A DNA stretch of 64,000 nucleotides from Gemmatimonas sp. (GTDB lineage Bacteria > Gemmatimonadota > Gemmatimonadetes > Gemmatimonadales > Gemmatimonadaceae): positions 57,020 to 121,019 of the forward strand of contig JAABRL010000006.1 in the NCBI GenBank assembly GCA_011390935.1. Reading direction: 5' to 3'. Below are positions 30,041 to 59,245 of this stretch, in pieces. The stretch's first letter is position 1, and each line of letters opens with the position of its first letter. The translations under genes were made by a program, and so were the position numbers. Below the pieces are notes generated by a model. It was not told where the DNA came from. It did no database searches and was given only the letters and a program-made list of their open reading frames with translations.

Positions 30041-31840
30041 TTACCCCACACGATCGCGACGCACCGGCACGCGACGTCCCTTGATGTGCGCCGCACCGAG
30101 TGCGTCCACGATCAGGTCGGCCTTTCCCGCCGGCACTTCGACCGTGCAGTGCCGATCACTCACCACGATCGAGCCGATCTCGCTCGCGGGCACGCCCGTT
30201 TCGTTCACGATGGCGCCCACGAGATCACCAGGACGGATCTTGGCCTTGCGACCACCGCCCACGAAGATCTTGACCACTGCACCACCCGAACTGCGCGGCT
30301 TGGCGGCACGGGCCTCGCTGTCGCCACCACGAGCCGCCACACGGCCCGCAGCACCCGAGGGGCGCTCGCTGCGCGCACCGCGCGACGGCGCGCCACGACC
30401 GGACGGGCCCGACGACGCCGGACGCTCCGAGCGCACCGGCGCGGCCGGAATCTCGGGCTCTTCCGTTCCCTGCCGACCGGCATCGAGCAACCGCACCGCG
30501 GCCGCGGCGATATCGAAAATGTCGAACTCTTCCGCGAGCGAGGCCACCACTTCGTGGCCGGCCTCGGTGTTGCCCTGCTCCTGCGCTTCGAGAATGGCTT
30601 CGCGAAGCGTGGTGCGCGTGAGTTCGAGACGACGCGCCCGCAGATCGTTCACCGTGGGCACGGCTTCGACGGCAATCGGCTGGCCCGTGAGCCGCTCGAT
30701 GTTGCGCAGCAGGCGATGCTCACGCGGCTCGGCCAACGTGATGGCCACGCCTTCACGGCCGGCACGACCGGTACGGCCAATGCGATGCACGTACGTCTCG
30801 GCGTCCGACGGCACGTCGAAGTTCACCACGTGCGTCACATGCGTCACATCGAGGCCACGCGCGGCCACGTCGGTCGCAATGAGCAGGTCGGTCTTCTTGG
30901 CGCGGAAGCGCTTCATGACGCGATCGCGCTGATCCTGGCTCAGTCCGCCGTGCAGCGCTTCGGCGCGCAGCCCGCGGGCTGTGAGCGTTTCGTTGAGTTC
31001 GTCCACTTCCGTGCGCGTGCGGCAGAACACGATCGCTGCCGTGGGACTCTCGATGTCGAGCACGCGCCCCAGCGCGGCCATCTTGTGGAAGCGTGTGACC
31101 ACGTACGCCACCTGCCGCACGCGCGCCGTCTCCCCAGCCGCCACGATTTCACGATCGATCTTCACGCGCACCGGATTCTTCAGGTGCCCGTTGGCGATCG
31201 AGTTGATGCGGGGCGGCAGCGTGGCCGAAAACAGCGCGGTCTGCCGCGTGTCGGGCGTCTGCTCGAGGATGGCTTCGAGGTCGTCGGCGAAGCCCATGTC
31301 GAGCATTTCGTCGGCTTCATCGAGCACCACGGTGCGCACATGCGCCAGCGAGAGCGAGTTGCGGCGCAGATGATCGAGCGCGCGACCGGGCGTGGCGATG
31401 ACCACATCGACACCACGCTTGAGGGCGCGCAGCTGCGGCTCCATGGGGGCGCCGCCGTAGATCGGGAGCGCGTGCACCCCGAGGGCCTTGCCATAGCGGT
31501 GCACGGCCTCGGCCACCTGCATGGCCAGCTCGCGCGTGGGGACGAGTACCAGGGCGGCGACGCGCTCCGCGGGGCGGGCGCCATCGTTCAGCCGATGCAG
31601 CAGGGGAAGGGCGAACGCGGCCGTCTTGCCGGTGCCGGTGGCGGCCATGGCGAGCACATCGCGACCCTCGAGCAGCGCCGGAATCGCGGCGCGCTGGATC
31701 GGGGTGGGCTCTTCGTAGCCGAGTTCAGTAAGGGAAGCGAGCAGCCGCGCATCCATGCCGAGCGCGGCAAAGCCGGTGTCGAGCGTTTCGGGCGTGCTGT
31801 CGGTCGGGTCGAGCTCAGAAGCAGTTGCAGTAGTTGACAT
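30041..31840 (-). CDS. deaD: DEAD-box RNA helicase (DeaD/CsdA-like)
   Basis: The protein is 599 residues. It has the Q-motif (GYEEPTPIQRAAIP, 41-54), Walker A AATGTGKT (66-73), DEAD at 174-177, SAT at 205-207 and HRIGRTGRAGREG in the second RecA domain. A low-complexity linker rich in Ser, Arg and Gly (about 460-525) leads to a C-terminal DbpA-type RNA-binding domain (about 527-599, IFVGGGRKAKIRPGDLVGAI). It unwinds RNA with ATP, as in ribosome assembly and cold adaptation. The gene stands alone, with a short leader of unclear content. AGGA directly precedes the ATG. Confidence 0.9.
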   Translation of the reverse strand: MSTTATASELDPTDSTPETLDTGFAALGMDARLLASLTELGYEEPTPIQRAAIPALLEGRDVLAMAATGTGKTAAFALPLLHRLNDGARPAERVAALVLVPTRELAMQVAEAVHRYGKALGVHALPIYGGAPMEPQLRALKRGVDVVIATPGRALDHLRRNSLSLAHVRTVVLDEADEMLDMGFADDLEAILEQTPDTRQTALFSATLPPRINSIANGHLKNPVRVKIDREIVAAGETARVRQVAYVVTRFHKMAALGRVLDIESPTAAIVFCRTRTEVDELNETLTARGLRAEALHGGLSQDQRDRVMKRFRAKKTDLLIATDVAARGLDVTHVTHVVNFDVPSDAETYVHRIGRTGRAGREGVAITLAEPREHRLLRNIERLTGQPIAVEAVPTVNDLRARRLELTRTTLREAILEAQEQGNTEAGHEVVASLAEEFDIFDIAAAAVRLLDAGRQGTEEPEIPAAPVRSERPASSGPSGRGAPSRGARSERPSGAAGRVAARGGDSEARAAKPRSSGGAVVKIFVGGGRKAKIRPGDLVGAIVNETGVPASEIGSIVVSDRHCTVEVPAGKADLIVDALGAAHIKGRRVPVRRDRVG

Positions 31841-31929: not shown

Positions 31930-33360
31930 TCACGGGCGCAGCCCGAACTGCGTCCAGAAGAGCAGCATGACACACTCCGATTCCGCAAAGGCCGCGTAGC
32001 GATCGGGCGCGTACGCGACCGACCGATAGATCTCCACCGCAGCCAGCTGGTCGACCGCCACGGAGTGCAGCTCCTCGAGCGTGGCCGGGAAGCCATCGAG
32101 CAGGATGGTCGCCTGACAGCTGGTGACCCCCAGCGACCGGCCGCGGCCGGAGACCGCGAATTTGGCCGCGTCCGTCTCGCCCGACGGGGTGGTGATCTCC
32201 AGGCCCGGCACCATCTCGAGCGCGGCGCGCAGCGAACCCGCCTCGCGGATCTGGACGGTGTCCACAAATGTGGCAAGCCCTTCGCGGCGGCGCAGCTCGA
32301 ACTCTTCCCGGTCGCGCCGAAGGACACGCCGTTCCGTAACGGCGAAGCCTTCGAGCCCCGCGATCGAGAGCCCACGCTCCAGCGGGACGACCACGTCGGG
32401 CGTGCTGGCGAAGAGCACATCCACCTGCTGCATCCCGCTCACATACCCCCCCGCTTCCGCGCTCAGCATGCGCGACCCGGGCGGCACCTGCGGCATCGTG
32501 AAGCGGCCGGCGCTGTCGGTGACGGCCGCGCTATCCACACCATCGATGTTCACCACGGCCCCGGCGATCGGCTGCAGGTCCGGGGCGATCACACGTCCGG
32601 TAAGCGTGGGCCAGCGGTCGATCGGGCCATCCGCAGGGGCCATGACCACATCCACTCGGCGCAAGGGCCGGTCGGTGAGCGAGACGCGAAGCGCACTCGA
32701 GGCGTATTCGGTGGAGAGCGCGATCATGGCCAGCTCCCCCACGTTCGGCACGCCGCAAATGGCGAAGCTGCCCGTGGAGTCGGTCACGGCGTCGCGCTCC
32801 TCGAGCTGCAGCAGGCGGGTTCGCGGCAGGATCGCCTCCCACTGCACGCGAATGCCGGCCCCGCCCACCCGCGTACGGTCGTCGGGGAGACGCGTGGACC
32901 CGATCAGCACGCCGCCGTTCTCGCCGGCCGGTCGCGGCTCGCCGCACACCGCGTCCCAGATCGTTTCCATGGACGGAATCGCCACGGTGAAGCCGTCCCA
33001 ACGGGTGGCATCGGCAGGGCGTTCGGCCACCAGGGCGCCAAAGCCGATCTCGTCGAGCGCCTCGTGATACACGGTGACCTTGGTGATACGACCGTCGGCC
33101 ACGACGGTGAAGCGCCCGAGCGAGTCGGTGCTCACGTTGGCGCCACCCGGTTCCGCGAGTACGAAGGCCTCCACGAGTGGCACATTGGAGACGCTGTCAA
33201 ACACCACGCCGCGCACGGTGTCTGGAGCGGCGCGCAGCGCCACCGTGCGCGGCGTCGAGCCGGCGGCGGCGGTGGCACGGCCGATCTGGGGCGCGGCGAG
33301 CGCAATGACGCCCAGCAGCAGGGCGGCGCGGCGGGCGCGCACGAAGGGGGGCAGAGTCAT
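31930..33360 (-). CDS. secreted carboxypeptidase-regulatory-like plus TonB-plug protein without a barrel (paralogue A)
   Basis: The protein is 476 residues from ATG 33360, with a signal-like N-terminus. Two or three carboxypeptidase-regulatory-like modules are visible (about 45-95, 160-220, 255-320; for example GVVFDSVSNVPLVEAFVLA). A TonB-dependent-receptor plug follows (about 370-476) with CQATILLDG and the closing CVMLLFWT at the very end. The membrane barrel that normally follows the plug is absent: the chain stops seven residues after the WT. It is a tandem duplicate of the gene at 33426-34802 and a relative of the gene at 48266-49063. The function is unknown. Confidence 0.7.
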   Translation of the reverse strand: MTLPPFVRARRAALLLGVIALAAPQIGRATAAAGSTPRTVALRAAPDTVRGVVFDSVSNVPLVEAFVLAEPGGANVSTDSLGRFTVVADGRITKVTVYHEALDEIGFGALVAERPADATRWDGFTVAIPSMETIWDAVCGEPRPAGENGGVLIGSTRLPDDRTRVGGAGIRVQWEAILPRTRLLQLEERDAVTDSTGSFAICGVPNVGELAMIALSTEYASSALRVSLTDRPLRRVDVVMAPADGPIDRWPTLTGRVIAPDLQPIAGAVVNIDGVDSAAVTDSAGRFTMPQVPPGSRMLSAEAGGYVSGMQQVDVLFASTPDVVVPLERGLSIAGLEGFAVTERRVLRRDREEFELRRREGLATFVDTVQIREAGSLRAALEMVPGLEITTPSGETDAAKFAVSGRGRSLGVTSCQATILLDGFPATLEELHSVAVDQLAAVEIYRSVAYAPDRYAAFAESECVMLLFWTQFGLRP

Positions 33361-33425
33361 CCCGGAAAGATTGCCATAACGGCGTGCTGGCGGCACCGGG
33401 GACGCCGTGATTTGCGGCTCGCCAC

Positions 33426-34802
33426 CTATGGACGCAGCCCGTTCTTGGTCCAGAAGAGGACGACCGCGCAGTCGTTGCCCCCAATGGGGATGTAGCGCGC
33501 CGGGGCCAGAGCGGTGGATGCGAAGAACTCGATGGCCGCAAGGTTGCGCGGCGGAATGACATTCACGTCGTCGATGGTGGCCAGCGTCCCGTCGAGGTAG
33601 ACGTAGGCGGCGCAGCCGCGTCGCCCCCGAATCACGAACTCACTCGTGCCCCGTCGCCCCTGCTCCACGTTGATCCCCTGCGTCATCTGCATCGCGGCTC
33701 GCAGGTTGGGCGCCCGCATGATCGTGGTGGAATCGAGCGTGCGCCCCATGCCGGTGCGCTTGCGCAGTTCGAACTCCCCGCGCTCACGCGTCACGTTCAC
33801 GCGTTCCGTGATCGTGACCCCCTCGATCTGCACGACCTTTTCGAAGGGGATCGTGATCGGCGGATTCTCGCCGGCCATGACCTCCACCAGCTGCCCCACG
33901 GGTTGATACCCGACGGCGCGCACGTACAGCATGCGCGAGCCCGTGGGTACGTCGGGAAACACGAACCGACCGTCAGTGCCGGTGACCTGCGCATCGGTCA
34001 CGCCCTCGAGCGCGAGCTGCACGTTGGAGAGCGGGGTGCCATCGTTGTCGCGCACGAGGCCCCGCACGGCGCCCCGCTCGTCGGCTGCGCCGAGTACGAG
34101 GTCGATCCGTCGAAGCGGCCGAATGTCGCTGGTGACGGTGACGACCCCCGATTGCATCTCCTGCGACAGCGCGAGAAAGGAGATGTCAACGAACTCCTCC
34201 ACGCCGCAAATGAGGAAGTTGCCCAGCGAGTCGGTGAGGGTCTCCTCGGATCGCAGGTCGGGGCCACCGGTGGCGTAGTCGGGCTTGGGCCACTGGACGA
34301 TCACCTTGGCGCCGGCCACGCGCGTACGACCATCGGCGGCGCGGGCCGTGCCCGTCACGATCACGGATCGCCCACCCAGCGGGCGGCGCGAGTCGCACAG
34401 TTGGGGCCAGACCGTGAGCAGCGAGGGGGTGCTGATGGTCACGGCGCGGCGACGGTCGTCCGGGCGTTCCGCCACGAGCGCGCCCAAGCCGATGCGGTCG
34501 AGCACTTCGTGGTAGACAGTGATGCGCGTGGTGATGGTATCCGAGAGCAGCTCGAAGGAGCCGGTCGAATCGGTCACGGTGGTGGCACCGCTGGGCATGG
34601 CGACGACGAGCGCGCCCGCCAACGGCTCCGCGGCCAGACTGTCGAACACGATACCGCGTGCGGTATCCGCGGCGCTGCGCGCGCGCACGGTATCGAGCAC
34701 CGGCGGCGGCGGGTCCTGGGCACGAACCGTGTTCGGCAGCGCCACCGCGCCCGCCAGGCAGCACAGGGCCCGAAGCAGGACGCGCAATGGAGAGGTGGTC
34801 AT
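33426..34802 (-). CDS. secreted carboxypeptidase-regulatory-like plus TonB-plug protein without a barrel (paralogue B)
   Basis: The protein is 458 residues from ATG 34802 with a cleavable signal (ALPNTVRAQ). It is collinear with paralogue A: GIVFDSLAAEPLAGALVVA, the ITVYHEVLDRIGLGALVAER block shared almost word for word, ICGVEEF, then a plug domain. It ends with CAAYVYLDG and CAVVLFWTKNGLRP. As in paralogue A, no barrel follows. The two genes share direction and are 65 bp apart, so they probably form an operon. A plug alone cannot form a channel, so a role as periplasmic binding or decoy protein is a guess. Confidence 0.7.
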   Translation of the reverse strand: MTTSPLRVLLRALCCLAGAVALPNTVRAQDPPPPVLDTVRARSAADTARGIVFDSLAAEPLAGALVVAMPSGATTVTDSTGSFELLSDTITTRITVYHEVLDRIGLGALVAERPDDRRRAVTISTPSLLTVWPQLCDSRRPLGGRSVIVTGTARAADGRTRVAGAKVIVQWPKPDYATGGPDLRSEETLTDSLGNFLICGVEEFVDISFLALSQEMQSGVVTVTSDIRPLRRIDLVLGAADERGAVRGLVRDNDGTPLSNVQLALEGVTDAQVTGTDGRFVFPDVPTGSRMLYVRAVGYQPVGQLVEVMAGENPPITIPFEKVVQIEGVTITERVNVTRERGEFELRKRTGMGRTLDSTTIMRAPNLRAAMQMTQGINVEQGRRGTSEFVIRGRRGCAAYVYLDGTLATIDDVNVIPPRNLAAIEFFASTALAPARYIPIGGNDCAVVLFWTKNGLRP

Positions 34803-45356: not shown

Positions 45357-47471
45357 ATGACATTCCGACTTTTTTCGCCCCCGCGCATGCGGCTGGCGCG
45401 CTCCGTGGCGTTCGCTTGCGTGGCGTCACTCGTGAGCACAGCGCTCTCGGCGCAGACCGTGGGCATTTCGCTCGTCCCGTCGGCGCAACGTGTCGATTGG
45501 AACGACGAGCTGCCGTTTGCGACCGACTGGCTTTATGGTGGCCGCGTGGCGCTGCAATTCGGGAAGTTTGTCGAGTTGCAGCCGTTCTACTTCATGCGCA
45601 ACGGATTCGGTCTCGACTCCACGAAGATCGCATCGCGATTCGGCCCCGCCGCACTGGGACGCACGCTCGACCTGCAGCACTACGGCACGAGCGTGCAGTT
45701 CAACCTGGGCGATGGCGGTGTCGTGCCATTCGTGCGAGCGGGAGCGGGCGTGCTTCGGCTGGAGCCGGAAGACAGTGAACGACAGGATCGCATCACCGTG
45801 AGCGCCGGTGGAGGGTTCCGCTTTGGTATCGCGGGGCTCAACGCCGAACTGTTCGCCGAACAGATGTCGTTCCGCATGAATCCGCAGTCGCTGTTCGGTC
45901 CGGACACCTCGGCCGGTGCATCGCTGCCCACATTGCGCAACTTCGTGTATGGCGCGGCCGTCACGTTGCCCATCTCGACGCCGAGCAATCTCGACCGCGA
46001 CAGCGACGGATTGCGCGGCACCACGTCGCCGATTGAGCCGTTCGTTGGCGTGCTGCGCTATGCCGGCGCGCACAACCTGCCGAATCAGGAGCTCGCTGGC
46101 GTGCGCGCGGGCATCGATTTTTCGCCGGTGTTCGGCGTGCGCGGCTTCTACTGGCGCGGTGTGAACGATGATCGCAATGGTCCGGCCGATGTCGCGGGCT
46201 ATGGTGGTGAGGCGCAGTTCAACCTCAACACGGGCCCCGGCATTTCGCCGTTTCTCGTGGTCGGCGCCGGTCAGCTGGATTACAACGCCAACTTCCGCGA
46301 TTCGCTCGGCAACACGCGCGATGACAAGACCGCGTTCATCATTGGCGGCGGCGCCAGCGTACAGTTGTCCGATCGCGTGCGTCTCAACGGTGCCATTCGC
46401 GATTACATCATGACCACCGACGAGTCGCTCGACAACGTGGCCACCACTGGTGACCTCACGCACAACACCATGATCACCGCGGGTCTCACGATCAGCTTTG
46501 GTGGTCGCACGCAGGCGAGCGATCGCCGCGGCATGGCAACGCGCGATGATCGACGCACCAGCGCGCGAGAGACGCCGATCGAACGCGAGCTTCGCGAAGT
46601 CGAAGCGCTGCGCGAGGAGCGTCTGATGCGCGCCATTCGGGCCGAGCGTGAGGCGCTGGAACGCGAGGCGCGAGCCGAACGCGCGACGCCGGACGACGCC
46701 CGTCGCCGGCTGGACGACGCCCGCGTGGTGCCGCGCACCATCACCGGCAGCGACTCGGTGCGCTACATCACGGTGCCCGTGCCCACGCAGGGCGAGATCA
46801 TCCTGCGCTACGGGCTGCCGGCGCGCGACAGCGGGGTGGTTCGCCGCGATAGCGTGGTGGTGACCCCCGGCACCCCTGCTGGCGACATGCTCGCCCGCCT
46901 GGCGGAAATCGAGCGCCGTCTCACGGCACGCCTCGACGCGATCGAACGCCAGCAGGCCGGTACGCCGGGCGCGCAGGCGCCCGTGGTGAACATGGTCACG
47001 CCGAGTGGTGAGCCCGTGGTGGTCGATCGTGCAAACCGCCCCGTGTTCCAGCGCTTTGGCCAGGTACGCTCTCGTGACCTGCAGCCGTACGCCGGTTTCG
47101 GCATTCGCGATGGGGACGCGCAGATCATTCTGGGCGCGCGTGCCGACCTGGGCCCGATCAATCCCGGCAGCGGTCTGCACTTCGTGCCGGAGCTGGCCGT
47201 GGGCTTCGGCAGCGGTCCGTTCTCGGTGCTGGCGCTGGCCAACGTGCAGTACGCGTTCGGTGCCATGGGTGGCAATCGCAGCATTCGCCCGTACGTCACG
47301 CTCGGCGGCGGCGTGTACTCGCCCACCGTGCTCGGCATCAACACGGCGATCGGTTCGTCGTTCCGATTGCAGCCGCAGGCGGCACGTCCGCTGTTCCTGA
47401 ACGTGGAGCTGCAGAGCATCAACCTCGGCGGGCAGACCCGCCTACTGTTCGGTCTGAGCCGTTCGCAGTAA
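45357..47471 (+). CDS. outer-membrane protein with two barrel-like domains joined by a coiled coil
   Basis: The protein is 704 residues from ATG 45357, with a signal peptide ending ALSAQ. Residues of about 30-380 form a barrel-like region with OmpA-like strands (VQFNLGDGGVVPFVRAGAG, in parts), including a calcium-type acidic loop DRDSDG. A highly charged helical segment lies at about 400-500 (IERELREVEALREERLMRA and so on). The C-terminal region (about 570-704) has further barrel strands (DLQPYAGFGIRDGDAQIILGA, in parts). Paired barrels around a coiled coil are unusual. It is followed by a strong terminator. Confidence 0.65.
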   Translation: MTFRLFSPPRMRLARSVAFACVASLVSTALSAQTVGISLVPSAQRVDWNDELPFATDWLYGGRVALQFGKFVELQPFYFMRNGFGLDSTKIASRFGPAALGRTLDLQHYGTSVQFNLGDGGVVPFVRAGAGVLRLEPEDSERQDRITVSAGGGFRFGIAGLNAELFAEQMSFRMNPQSLFGPDTSAGASLPTLRNFVYGAAVTLPISTPSNLDRDSDGLRGTTSPIEPFVGVLRYAGAHNLPNQELAGVRAGIDFSPVFGVRGFYWRGVNDDRNGPADVAGYGGEAQFNLNTGPGISPFLVVGAGQLDYNANFRDSLGNTRDDKTAFIIGGGASVQLSDRVRLNGAIRDYIMTTDESLDNVATTGDLTHNTMITAGLTISFGGRTQASDRRGMATRDDRRTSARETPIERELREVEALREERLMRAIRAEREALEREARAERATPDDARRRLDDARVVPRTITGSDSVRYITVPVPTQGEIILRYGLPARDSGVVRRDSVVVTPGTPAGDMLARLAEIERRLTARLDAIERQQAGTPGAQAPVVNMVTPSGEPVVVDRANRPVFQRFGQVRSRDLQPYAGFGIRDGDAQIILGARADLGPINPGSGLHFVPELAVGFGSGPFSVLALANVQYAFGAMGGNRSIRPYVTLGGGVYSPTVLGINTAIGSSFRLQPQAARPLFLNVELQSINLGGQTRLLFGLSRSQ

Positions 47472-47526
47472 GGGCAGTACGAACGGGAATGCCTGACTGC
47501 TGACGCCGTCAGGTCACCGCATGTTC

Positions 47527-48265: not shown

Positions 48266-49063
48266 GTGAACACGCGCCGCATCATGCTGCCGCTGTCCGT
48301 CGCCGTCGCGCTCAGTGCGCTGACGGCATCCGCGCACGCCCAATCCATCGTGCGCGTGCTCGACCGGGACAGCCTCCCAATCCCGTTTGCCCTCGTGCAG
48401 GTTGGCGGCGGCGCGGAGCGAGTGGCCGATTCGCTCGGACGCGCACGCTTTGCGAAGGAGCTCGGTACGGCGGCGTCCCTGACGGTGCGACGCATCGGAT
48501 ACGCGCCGTTCCACGGACGCGCCACCACGTCAGCGCAGGGGGAGTTGGTGGTGCTGCTCGAGCCGATGGTGCGCGAACTCGAGGCGGTGCAGACCGTGGC
48601 GCTGCGCAGTACCCCGCTCTCACGCACCGGCTTCTACGATCGCATGCAACGCGTGCACGACGGGGCGATCGTGGGACGCTTCATCACGCCCGAGGAGCTC
48701 GAGCAGCGCCGACCGACGCTGGTGTCCCAAGTGCTGCAGGGGCTGCCATCGGTTCGCGTGCAGCGGGCCCCTGACGGGAGAGCCGTGGTGCTCGGCCGAG
48801 GAGGTTGCCCGATGACCGTGCTGCTCGACGGGCAGCGCCTCAACGGCCTGCTGCAAGACAATGCTCGGTTCCGAAGCACGAGCATCAATCCGCAGGGGCA
48901 ACGGGACGGCGGAGACCTGAGTCTCGATGAGGCCACCAACGCGAGCGAGGTCATGGCGATCGAGGTCTACAACTCCACCGCCAACGCACCAAGCGAACTG
49001 ATTCCAACCACCGGCGGTGGATCCTGCGGTCTCATCGCAATCTGGACGGGACCGCGGCGGTAA
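48266..49063 (+). CDS. secreted carboxypeptidase-regulatory-like plus TonB-plug protein without a barrel (paralogue C)
   Basis: The protein is 265 residues from GTG 48266 with GGGAGG 5 nt upstream and a signal peptide ending SAHAQ. One carboxypeptidase-regulatory-like module (about 27-100) is followed by a plug domain. It shares the endings of the two genes at 31930-34802: CPMTVLLDG, then IEVYNSTANAP and the C-terminal CGLIAIWTGPRR. The spacing C-x5-LDG and C-x5-WT is identical in all three. No barrel follows. It is single and divergent in location, so the family is dispersed in the genome. Confidence 0.7.
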   Translation: MNTRRIMLPLSVAVALSALTASAHAQSIVRVLDRDSLPIPFALVQVGGGAERVADSLGRARFAKELGTAASLTVRRIGYAPFHGRATTSAQGELVVLLEPMVRELEAVQTVALRSTPLSRTGFYDRMQRVHDGAIVGRFITPEELEQRRPTLVSQVLQGLPSVRVQRAPDGRAVVLGRGGCPMTVLLDGQRLNGLLQDNARFRSTSINPQGQRDGGDLSLDEATNASEVMAIEVYNSTANAPSELIPTTGGGSCGLIAIWTGPRR

Positions 49064-58000: not shown

Positions 58001-58314
58001 GCGATGGCGAGATCACCACCCGAGGCCACACGGGCCGTGTCGAGCACGGGGAAGAAGGTCGTGCCGCCGTTGATCGTCTTCCAGACGCCGCCGGCGGCGG
58101 TGGACACATAGAAGGTGCGCGACGGCGAGGCGATGCCTTCGACGTCCACGATGCGGCCGGCCATGTTGGCGGGACCGATGTTGCGCCAACTCAAGCCGTT
58201 GATGATCTGGGCGGCGGCCGCGTCTTCTGGCGGCGCGGCCATGGGCCCCTGCGCGGCGACCGGCGCGGCGAGCGCGGCCAGCGACAGGGTGGCGAGGGAG
58301 AGGGTGCGTCTCAT
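55069..58314 (-). CDS. sortilin/VPS10-like multi-repeat propeller protein
   Basis: The protein is 1,081 residues with a signal peptide (LAALAAPVAAQ). Bacterial neuraminidase-repeat motifs are frequent (for example YKTTDGGKSW, WKSTDAGATW, YVSVNRGGSW), giving two seven- to ten-bladed propellers of the VPS10 type. It starts ITNIGPANMAGR-like (WRNIGPANMAGRIVDVEG). A low-complexity segment rich in Gly lies at about 915-1015 (AFGGGGGGGAGG and RRGGRGGGGGQ), followed by a short final domain. Members are found in Gemmatimonadota and Bacteroidota; the substrate is unknown. The ATG at 58314 gives the signal peptide. Confidence 0.8.
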   Translation of the reverse strand: MRRTLSLATLSLAALAAPVAAQGPMAAPPEDAAAAQIINGLSWRNIGPANMAGRIVDVEGIASPSRTFYVSTAAGGVWKTINGGTTFFPVLDTARVASGGDLAIAPSDTNVVYWGTGEPNSRNSISPGGGIYKTTDGGKSWRFLGLAETRQIARIQVDPRNANVVYVAALGHVWGPNKERGLYKTTDGGDTWNLIKFIDDKTGFVDVQIHPKNPDIIFASSYQRVRGPYFLNSGGPGSALWKSTDAGATWTEVKGGGFPETMKGRIEIAIAASNPDIMYTMVEADTAPNARPTRGTAAQRRPSGLYRSADGGRTWEYRNPTNVRPFYYSQVRVSPVDPEVVFFSSTPVKYSRDGGKTAGNTTVGLHVDHHAMWFDPADAQRIIVGNDGGLGISLDGGGSWEFPNTFALGQFYNISVDMQVPYRVCGGLQDNGSWCGPSRRKQGPITNAMWHNVGGGDGFVTQQDWTDSNILYSTSQGGNMGRYNWEAGQRTALAKPNWRDDYNAWNDSIAVVRGDESRPETAEMRRRIAAFRAQQVKDSADGQLRWNWNTPYIISKHNPGTLYFGANKVLKSVKHGDEMFAISSDLSYADPAKLDVALRTTGGITPDVTGAETFGTVVSLNESPIRPGLLLAGTDDGRVWLTRNDGGAWEEVTKNITGVPAGAYVSRLEPSYEAEGTFYVTFDDHRRDDYTPYVFMTTDFGRTFKSIASNLPTGHADFVHVIREDPTNPNLLYLGTDVGLYVSVNRGGSWQRFMTDLPTVPVHDLVVHPRDRELVAGTHGRSIWIVDVAPLQQFTAEVAQASAHLFAPRIAFQWGEPPINGGNPGHKVFQAPSPQYGADLWYRVGQGTGQARLVIQDAKGDTLTTLSGPGGPGLHRVSWNFRGRPVPQAPLSPAALRDSIRNAQRVIAVLDSLEKGGMAANVIGMARNALTRGPAGMQAMMGAFGGGGGGGAGGARNDRPGETPATPSFPTAGAAAGGRGAGGGAPDMGGLQEVFGALREAIPGFNPMGGGGRRGGRGGGGGQAPFVESGDYRVTLTAGGRTMTQVLRVEKLANTGDGGGFGFEDEDALARQFERWLQSAR

Positions 58315-58498
58315 GGGACAGATGGGTCGAAATGGAGAACTGGGGCCGACGCGACGCGCGGCCTTCCCAACGTGGCGCTACGCCAGGCGCTTGGCCAGCG
58401 TTGACCGGCGCCCCCTGTTGGCGGGGGCACCATTCCGCGATACTTCAGGGGTGCGGGTGACGCATCCGGTCGCCCGACCTCCCGCGCGGAGCTCCGCC

Positions 58499-59245
58499 GT
58501 GCCAGCCAGTCCAGACCCTCCCCGCCTTCGACCCGCCAAGCGCCGGTCGCTCACGCTGCTCGAATCCGGGCGCGGCCACTCCGGCGCCGGTGCGCTGCAG
58601 ACCGCGCTGGGCATGCTGTTGTACGGTGCGGTGGTAACCACAGCGGTCGTGGCCGGAGCTCGCGATGCCACCGAAGCGTTCGAAGAGGCACAGCGGTCGG
58701 CGGAGTATCTCGCGCCGGAGCCCAAGCCGGTGGGGCGCGCCACCGAAGAGCGACTGCAGTACCTGGGCATGCGGGCGGGGACGGTGTCCTCAGGCGTTGA
58801 GACCGAAGGCGACGGCGATGCGGGTGCCGTGGTCGCGGTTCCCGGCATGGGCGAGAACACCGAATCGAGCGAGCTCGTCGAGGAGGTCGCCGACGAGTTC
58901 GTGCTCAGCGAAATCGATGTGGACTCGGCGGTGGTCCCCGACCCCACCAGCGGTGGCCCCGAGTACCCCGCTGGCCTGCTGGAGCTGCGCGTGGAGGGTA
59001 TCGTGCTGGCGAAGTTCGTGGTCGATTCCTTCGGCCTGGTCACGCCGGGGAGCTTCGTCTCGCTCGAGTCCACGCACCCCGCGTTCACGCGTGCGGTGGA
59101 TGAAGCGATGGCGCGCATGAAGTTCCGGCCGGCCTACGTGGGGAACAAGCGTGTACCGCAGCTGGTGGTGCAGAGCTTTGCGTTCCGGATCGCGAAACCC
59201 GTCGCCGACACCACGGGCAGGCCGCCGGCGATCGTTCCGCCGTAG
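58499..59245 (+). CDS. TonB-like C-terminal domain protein with one membrane segment
   Basis: The protein is about 248 residues from GTG 58499, with GGAG 7 nt upstream. One hydrophobic segment (about 40-58, [18 protein letters not shown]) is followed by a linker and a C-terminal TonB-type domain (about 155-238) with a repeated strand-helix pattern and [20 protein letters not shown]. Such proteins link inner-membrane energy to outer-membrane transporters, but the region lacks the Pro-rich span of TonB itself. It is followed by a terminator. An upstream in-frame start further into the sortilin gene is less likely. Confidence 0.65.

Follow-up and report, generated by a model that had tools for sequence, protein, structure and literature searches.

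Gemmatimonadota encode a family of exported, barrel-less proteins in which TTR-like modules precede a domain that, judging from profile matches and structural models, is a homolog of the plug of TonB-dependent receptors, with a predicted plug fold and an invariant pair of cysteines. Three members, P1 to P3, are encoded in the window, that is, the whole stretch of 64,000 nucleotides of Gemmatimonas sp. DNA that we analyzed:

31930..33360, minus strand: P1, exported protein of 476 aa, with a signal peptide, three TTR-like modules and a barrel-less plug
33426..34802, minus strand: P2, exported protein of 458 aa, in tandem with P1
33429..33839, minus strand: C-terminal residues 322-458 of P2, a TonB-box-like linker and the plug domain (AlphaFold, Foldseek)
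48266..49063, plus strand: P3, exported short form of 265 aa, with one weak TTR-like module and a plug

P1, which starts 65 nt from the stop codon of P2, is a tandem paralog of the latter (39% identity over the full length), and P3, a shorter relative, aligns with P2 over the region that comprises the last TTR-like module and the plug. The preliminary description of this DNA, made by reading the sequence alone, portrayed the three proteins as carboxypeptidase-regulatory-like modules joined to a plug and terminating soon after it, and this portrayal withstood the Pfam searches and the inspection of the downstream genes. CarboxypepD_reg (PF13620/PF13715) matches P1 and P2 with E-values of 1e-21 and 3e-20, respectively, and P3 weakly (E 0.004); Plug (PF07715) is matched in all three up to profile position 82-94 of 107, with scores that exceed the curated cut-off in P2 and P3 and fall slightly under it in P1. 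The three sequence motifs that it listed, C-x5-LDG, E-hydrophobic-aromatic-x-S-x-A-x-A-P and C-x5-WT, are indeed present in exact form in P1, P2 and P3, leaving 6, 6 and 4 residues, respectively, after the WT. In P1-P3, the Pfam scans detected neither the TonB_dep_Rec barrel (PF00593) nor the STN domain, the TonB_C domain is absent, and no surface anchor or export signal was seen besides the Sec-type signal peptide. Elsewhere in the window, a TonB_C domain (approximately 58958-59191, E 3e-5) lies in the frame 58115-59245 (plus strand).

The absence of the barrel is a property of the family as a whole: among 215 distinct members, 208 stop within 45 residues beyond the plug domain, seven carry about 125 more, and none more than 200. 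Thus, the homolog with the same cysteines and a barrel, which the preliminary description had named as a case against a separate family, did not turn up among these 215. P2 is followed by P1, P1 by an RhlE-like helicase gene (30041-31840, minus strand) and P3 by a GDPD-like gene on the opposite strand; no barrel gene or fragment follows any of the three within the window, where the next genes are unrelated, and there is no receptor gene near them. A barrel in another frame or in a downstream gene was ruled out, and so was one concealed in the long open frames (up to 1121 aa), whose extra length precedes the gene itself, the encoded proteins stopping just past the plug.

Genomes of the same genus carry one to three copies at the same locus, and on the two contigs that span the whole locus, the array lies between tgt and the RhlE-like helicase gene. 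P1 and P2 share about 65% identity with their same-genus orthologs, at a dN/dS of about 0.30-0.33, compared with 86-89% identity for the flanking housekeeping proteins RhlE and Tgt. P1 and P2 are intact, subject to purifying selection and faster to change than their neighbors; the second case raised against the family, stops arising from recent frameshifts, is ruled out by the intact orthologs together with the dN/dS. In one same-genus genome (L211), the interval between tgt and the RhlE-like gene contains three tandem copies, the middle paralog being missing from the genome that includes the window.

The family is far larger than the three members originally assigned to it: a profile built from P1-P3 finds about 13 in the same genome, which stop just past the second plug cysteine except for frameshift-broken copies. 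A profile of twelve members, its weakest few matches being ordinary receptor plugs, identified the family in 219 of the 249 sampled Gemmatimonadota genomes and in 97 of 112 genera, and one finished genome encodes 18 copies. When 84,980 species were scanned with the pattern CG[VT][VI][ALV][IV]WT[RK]R, which covers one branch of the family only, such that rare members could exist elsewhere, 102 of the 105 matches were relatives, and 75 of the 76 loci listed carry the Gemmatimonadota label. The apparent member outside the phylum, on a short Acidobacteria MAG contig (L149), was rejected as most likely mis-binned because it is near-identical to the member on a Gemmatimonadetes contig (L151) from the same sampling project, a single residue distinguishing the two over the displayed portion. 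Elsewhere in the window's genome, two tandem members (C22:44490-45421 and 47269-47511) have a TonB_C gene on the opposite strand at a distance of about 2 kb.

The cysteines of P1-P3 map as follows:

32116..32118, minus strand: first plug cysteine of P1 (C415)
31972..31974, minus strand: second plug cysteine of P1 (C463)
32944..32946, minus strand: N-terminal cysteine of P1 (C139)
32755..32757, minus strand: N-terminal cysteine of P1 (C202)
33612..33614, minus strand: first plug cysteine of P2 (C397), preceding the LDG strand
33468..33470, minus strand: second plug cysteine of P2 (C445), taking the place of the leading Gly in the GG motif of receptors
34395..34397, minus strand: N-terminal cysteine of P2 (C136), first of the second invariant pair of the long forms
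34206..34208, minus strand: N-terminal cysteine of P2 (C199), second of the second invariant pair of the long forms
48806..48808, plus strand: first plug cysteine of P3 (C181)
49025..49027, plus strand: second plug cysteine of P3 (C254)

Both plug cysteines are present in all 215 distinct members and their conservation is therefore not a matter of chance, although these members were collected with profiles of cysteine-bearing sequences, which a cysteine-less sister group could escape. The data thus support the proposal that these exported plug proteins, which lack a barrel and share an invariant pair of cysteines, form a family of their own. In a set of 85 members, no substitution occurs at either cysteine or at the Pro that follows IEVY, whereas E is found in 83, W in 82, and the Gly following the last plug cysteine in 81. 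The plug pair of P1-P3 had been recognized from the outset, but a second pair (C139/C202 in P1, C136/C199 in P2), invariant in 26 long forms, had gone unmentioned; the mature P1-P3 contain no cysteines outside these pairs. In a profile alignment to CirA, the first plug cysteine is aligned with the residue directly ahead of the strand that enters the conserved DG, and the second with the first Gly of LGGVVNIITKK, so that the last cysteine does replace a receptor-plug glycine, as had been surmised. None of the alignable barrel-bearing receptors of the same genome has a cysteine at either position; when the genome was searched independently with Pfam Plug, the matches were long-frame receptors, the cysteine-paired members and two short frames. 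We infer that the two plug cysteines form a disulfide, which would link the strand ahead of LDG with the final one. The genome encodes a homolog of VKOR, a known disulfide catalyst.

The assignment of the C-terminal domain draws on several comparisons. Pfam Plug matches 57 of 64 members, and the family profile matches CirA (E 7.6e-8). The structure prediction that the preliminary description called for yielded a receptor plug fold: the AlphaFold model of the P2 plug region (322-458) has a pLDDT of 87.4 and a pTM of 0.79, and all 50 of the PDB matches listed by Foldseek are TonB-dependent outer-membrane receptors, including Cir, PfeA, FepA, RagA and SusC. The model of full-length P2 (pLDDT 83.6) consists of three beta-sandwich modules and the plug, with predicted modules that resemble the TTR domain of carboxypeptidase D and domains of Gram-positive pilins.

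Several observations connect the family with the Ton system, in which the TonB protein powers nutrient-import receptors. Seven sampled members have a C-terminal extension; Pfam TonB_C was recognized in both of those that were tested (3e-15 and 4e-10), and the others align with these two; a profile of the plug plus the extension retrieved about 60 full-length plug-TonB_C fusions from about 50 genomes, all within Gemmatimonadaceae and none in the sampled genomes of the window's genus. In Oar/SusC-type receptors, the TonB box follows the TTR module and precedes the plug, and at the same place 155 of 193 family members contain L-x-x-[VILF]-x-[VILT], compared with 48 expected by shuffling; the L-x-x-V-x-V strand ahead of the plug could be a structural remnant. 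Across nine finished or near-finished genomes, with the 140 strongest receptors considered, a receptor lies within 5 kb of 9 of the 64 member loci (2.7 expected under rotation, p=0.003); about 86% of the member loci in finished genomes are located away from receptors, which is an upper bound given the same choice of 140 receptors. At some loci, the genes are arranged on one strand in the order member-SusC-SusD-like or SusC-SusD-like-member, and in a third group of loci, the member is convergent with the SusC/SusD-like pair. The SusD-like neighbors are designated as such from where they lie, how long they are and a start resembling that of lipoproteins, and their partial sequences gave no Pfam match. 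Apparent 'SusC' neighbors in L129, L132, L137 and others were disregarded as shadow ORFs of a different gene.

We tentatively favor the reading that these proteins, exported and soluble, correspond to the 'front half' of an Oar/SusC-type receptor and serve the Ton system as periplasmic adaptors or binding modules. The TonB-box-like strand and the TonB_C fusions make a soluble Ton-system adaptor the best reading. According to a review, the isolated plug of FepA behaved as unfolded, and engineered disulfides within the FepA plug blocked transport (PMC11658791); by analogy, the disulfide in the detached plugs would replace the support of the barrel and make the plug unsuitable for transport. The disulfide, then, would let the plug fold without the usual barrel, the locked plug could not make the internal rearrangement required for transport, and the protein itself would not transport. 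Such an adaptor would contact TonB via the TonB-box-like strand, and a ligand or a receptor via the plug face and the TTR modules; the TonB C-terminal domain carried by the fusion subfamily would provide a receptor contact of its own. The broader proposal that the family represents phylum-specific soluble Ton components, disulfide-locked detached plugs of which one subfamily is joined to TonB_C and which regulate or extend the periplasmic coupling of TonB to receptors, is rather unlikely.

The possibility that the members have no contact with TonB and are secreted or surface structural or binding proteins, in which the TTR-like stack is combined with a disulfide-stabilized plug that acts as a general binding domain, appears somewhat unlikely. 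In its favor, the full-length P2 model resembles stacked beta-sandwich pilins and the TTR domain of carboxypeptidase D, most member loci are far from receptors, P1 and P2 are only about 65% identical to their orthologs compared with 86-89% for RhlE and Tgt, and the isolated FepA plug still weakly bound ferric enterobactin (PMC11658791). However, the TonB_C fusions and the operon-like loci beside receptors point to the Ton system, and a Sec-type signal peptide is accompanied by neither a surface anchor nor another export signal. A plug that acts in trans, occluding a partner beta-barrel that has no plug of its own, would be compatible with the predicted complete plug fold and with the outer-membrane barrel encoded near some loci, but the one neighboring SusC-like receptor that was scanned has its own plug, and a locked plug would be a poor gate when it lacks the RGP-x-S-x-x-YG loop seen in receptor plugs, which makes this scenario improbable.

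As to the cysteines, the invariance of both, and nothing else, would suit a metal-binding or redox-active site; no further invariant Cys or His is found there, whereas an extracytoplasmic pair in mature proteins that, like P1-P3, have no cysteines beyond the described pairs fits a structural disulfide, so that we regard a metal or redox role as quite improbable. Finally, derivation from receptor parts is what one would expect if these genes were decaying or truncated receptor genes that are turning into pseudogenes, but the intact frames, the residues invariant in 215 members, the tgt-rhlE synteny and the dN/dS of about 0.3 render this explanation hardly credible.

The plug is usually understood only as a part of a barrel receptor. 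The cysteine-paired family, which reaches 18 copies in a genome and is present in nearly 90% of the sampled genomes of the phylum, would make a plug accessible to solution studies and allow one to test whether a rigid plug can no longer support transport, and the plug-TonB_C fusion suggests an undescribed arrangement of Ton-system parts. A literature search, in which subscription journals were thinly covered, found no description of a cysteine-paired detached plug family or of its TonB_C fusion; both are apparently new, whereas the parts (TTR-like extension, plug and TonB_C) were already known.

Other plug-only proteins occur in databases, in Bacteroidota. A second barrel-less group that we observed (L217:1-6501, L218:1-6501, L220, L221, L222) consists of SusC-type plug lipoproteins of about 150-190 aa, two of which are encoded directly upstream of a SusC-like receptor. 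These resemble the cysteine-paired family in consisting of a barrel-less plug alone but differ in having a lipobox, no cysteine pair and a receptor-type loop ending in x-x-YG. L219 encodes a 270-aa protein that combines TTR and plug parts, and in the window's genome, a 203-aa frame upstream of a receptor (L030, contig C93) is plug-like, with a CIRTTRTGRC motif, no barrel and the terminus YGALAIYTR. A third group comprises mini-plug-like short lipoproteins ending in GAIIVxTR, for example, L185:5449-5997 (minus strand), with similar ones in L134, L145, L147, L152, L153, L156, L159, L161, L165, L170, L182 and L191; at many loci, they adjoin an outer-membrane barrel protein and a SusC/SusD-like pair. 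Their match to the plug profile is weak (E 5.5e-4, probability 30%), and the one tested had no Pfam match.

The closest known systems include the Oar-type receptors, in which the same front half is followed by a barrel and which are well described (PMC6434023). Like the Oar/SusC/RagA-type receptors (CarboxypepD_reg, Plug and TonB_dep_Rec), the cysteine-paired family starts with a signal peptide, continues with a TTR-like extension and a TonB-box-like strand, and then has a plug, for which the same fold is predicted; unlike them, it is presumably soluble and has no barrel, carries the invariant cysteine pair, with a Cys at the first Gly of the GG motif, and has A-x-x-P as the loop after IEVY. 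The signal-transducing receptors of the FecA type similarly place periplasmic N-terminal modules ahead of the plug, but the family has TTR-like modules rather than an STN domain, and again no barrel. The likeness to the TonB energy transducers (PF03544) is that one subfamily of relatives ends in TonB_C; in contrast to these transducers, the relatives have a plug in front and no N-terminal membrane anchor that we could see, and P1-P3 themselves are without TonB_C.
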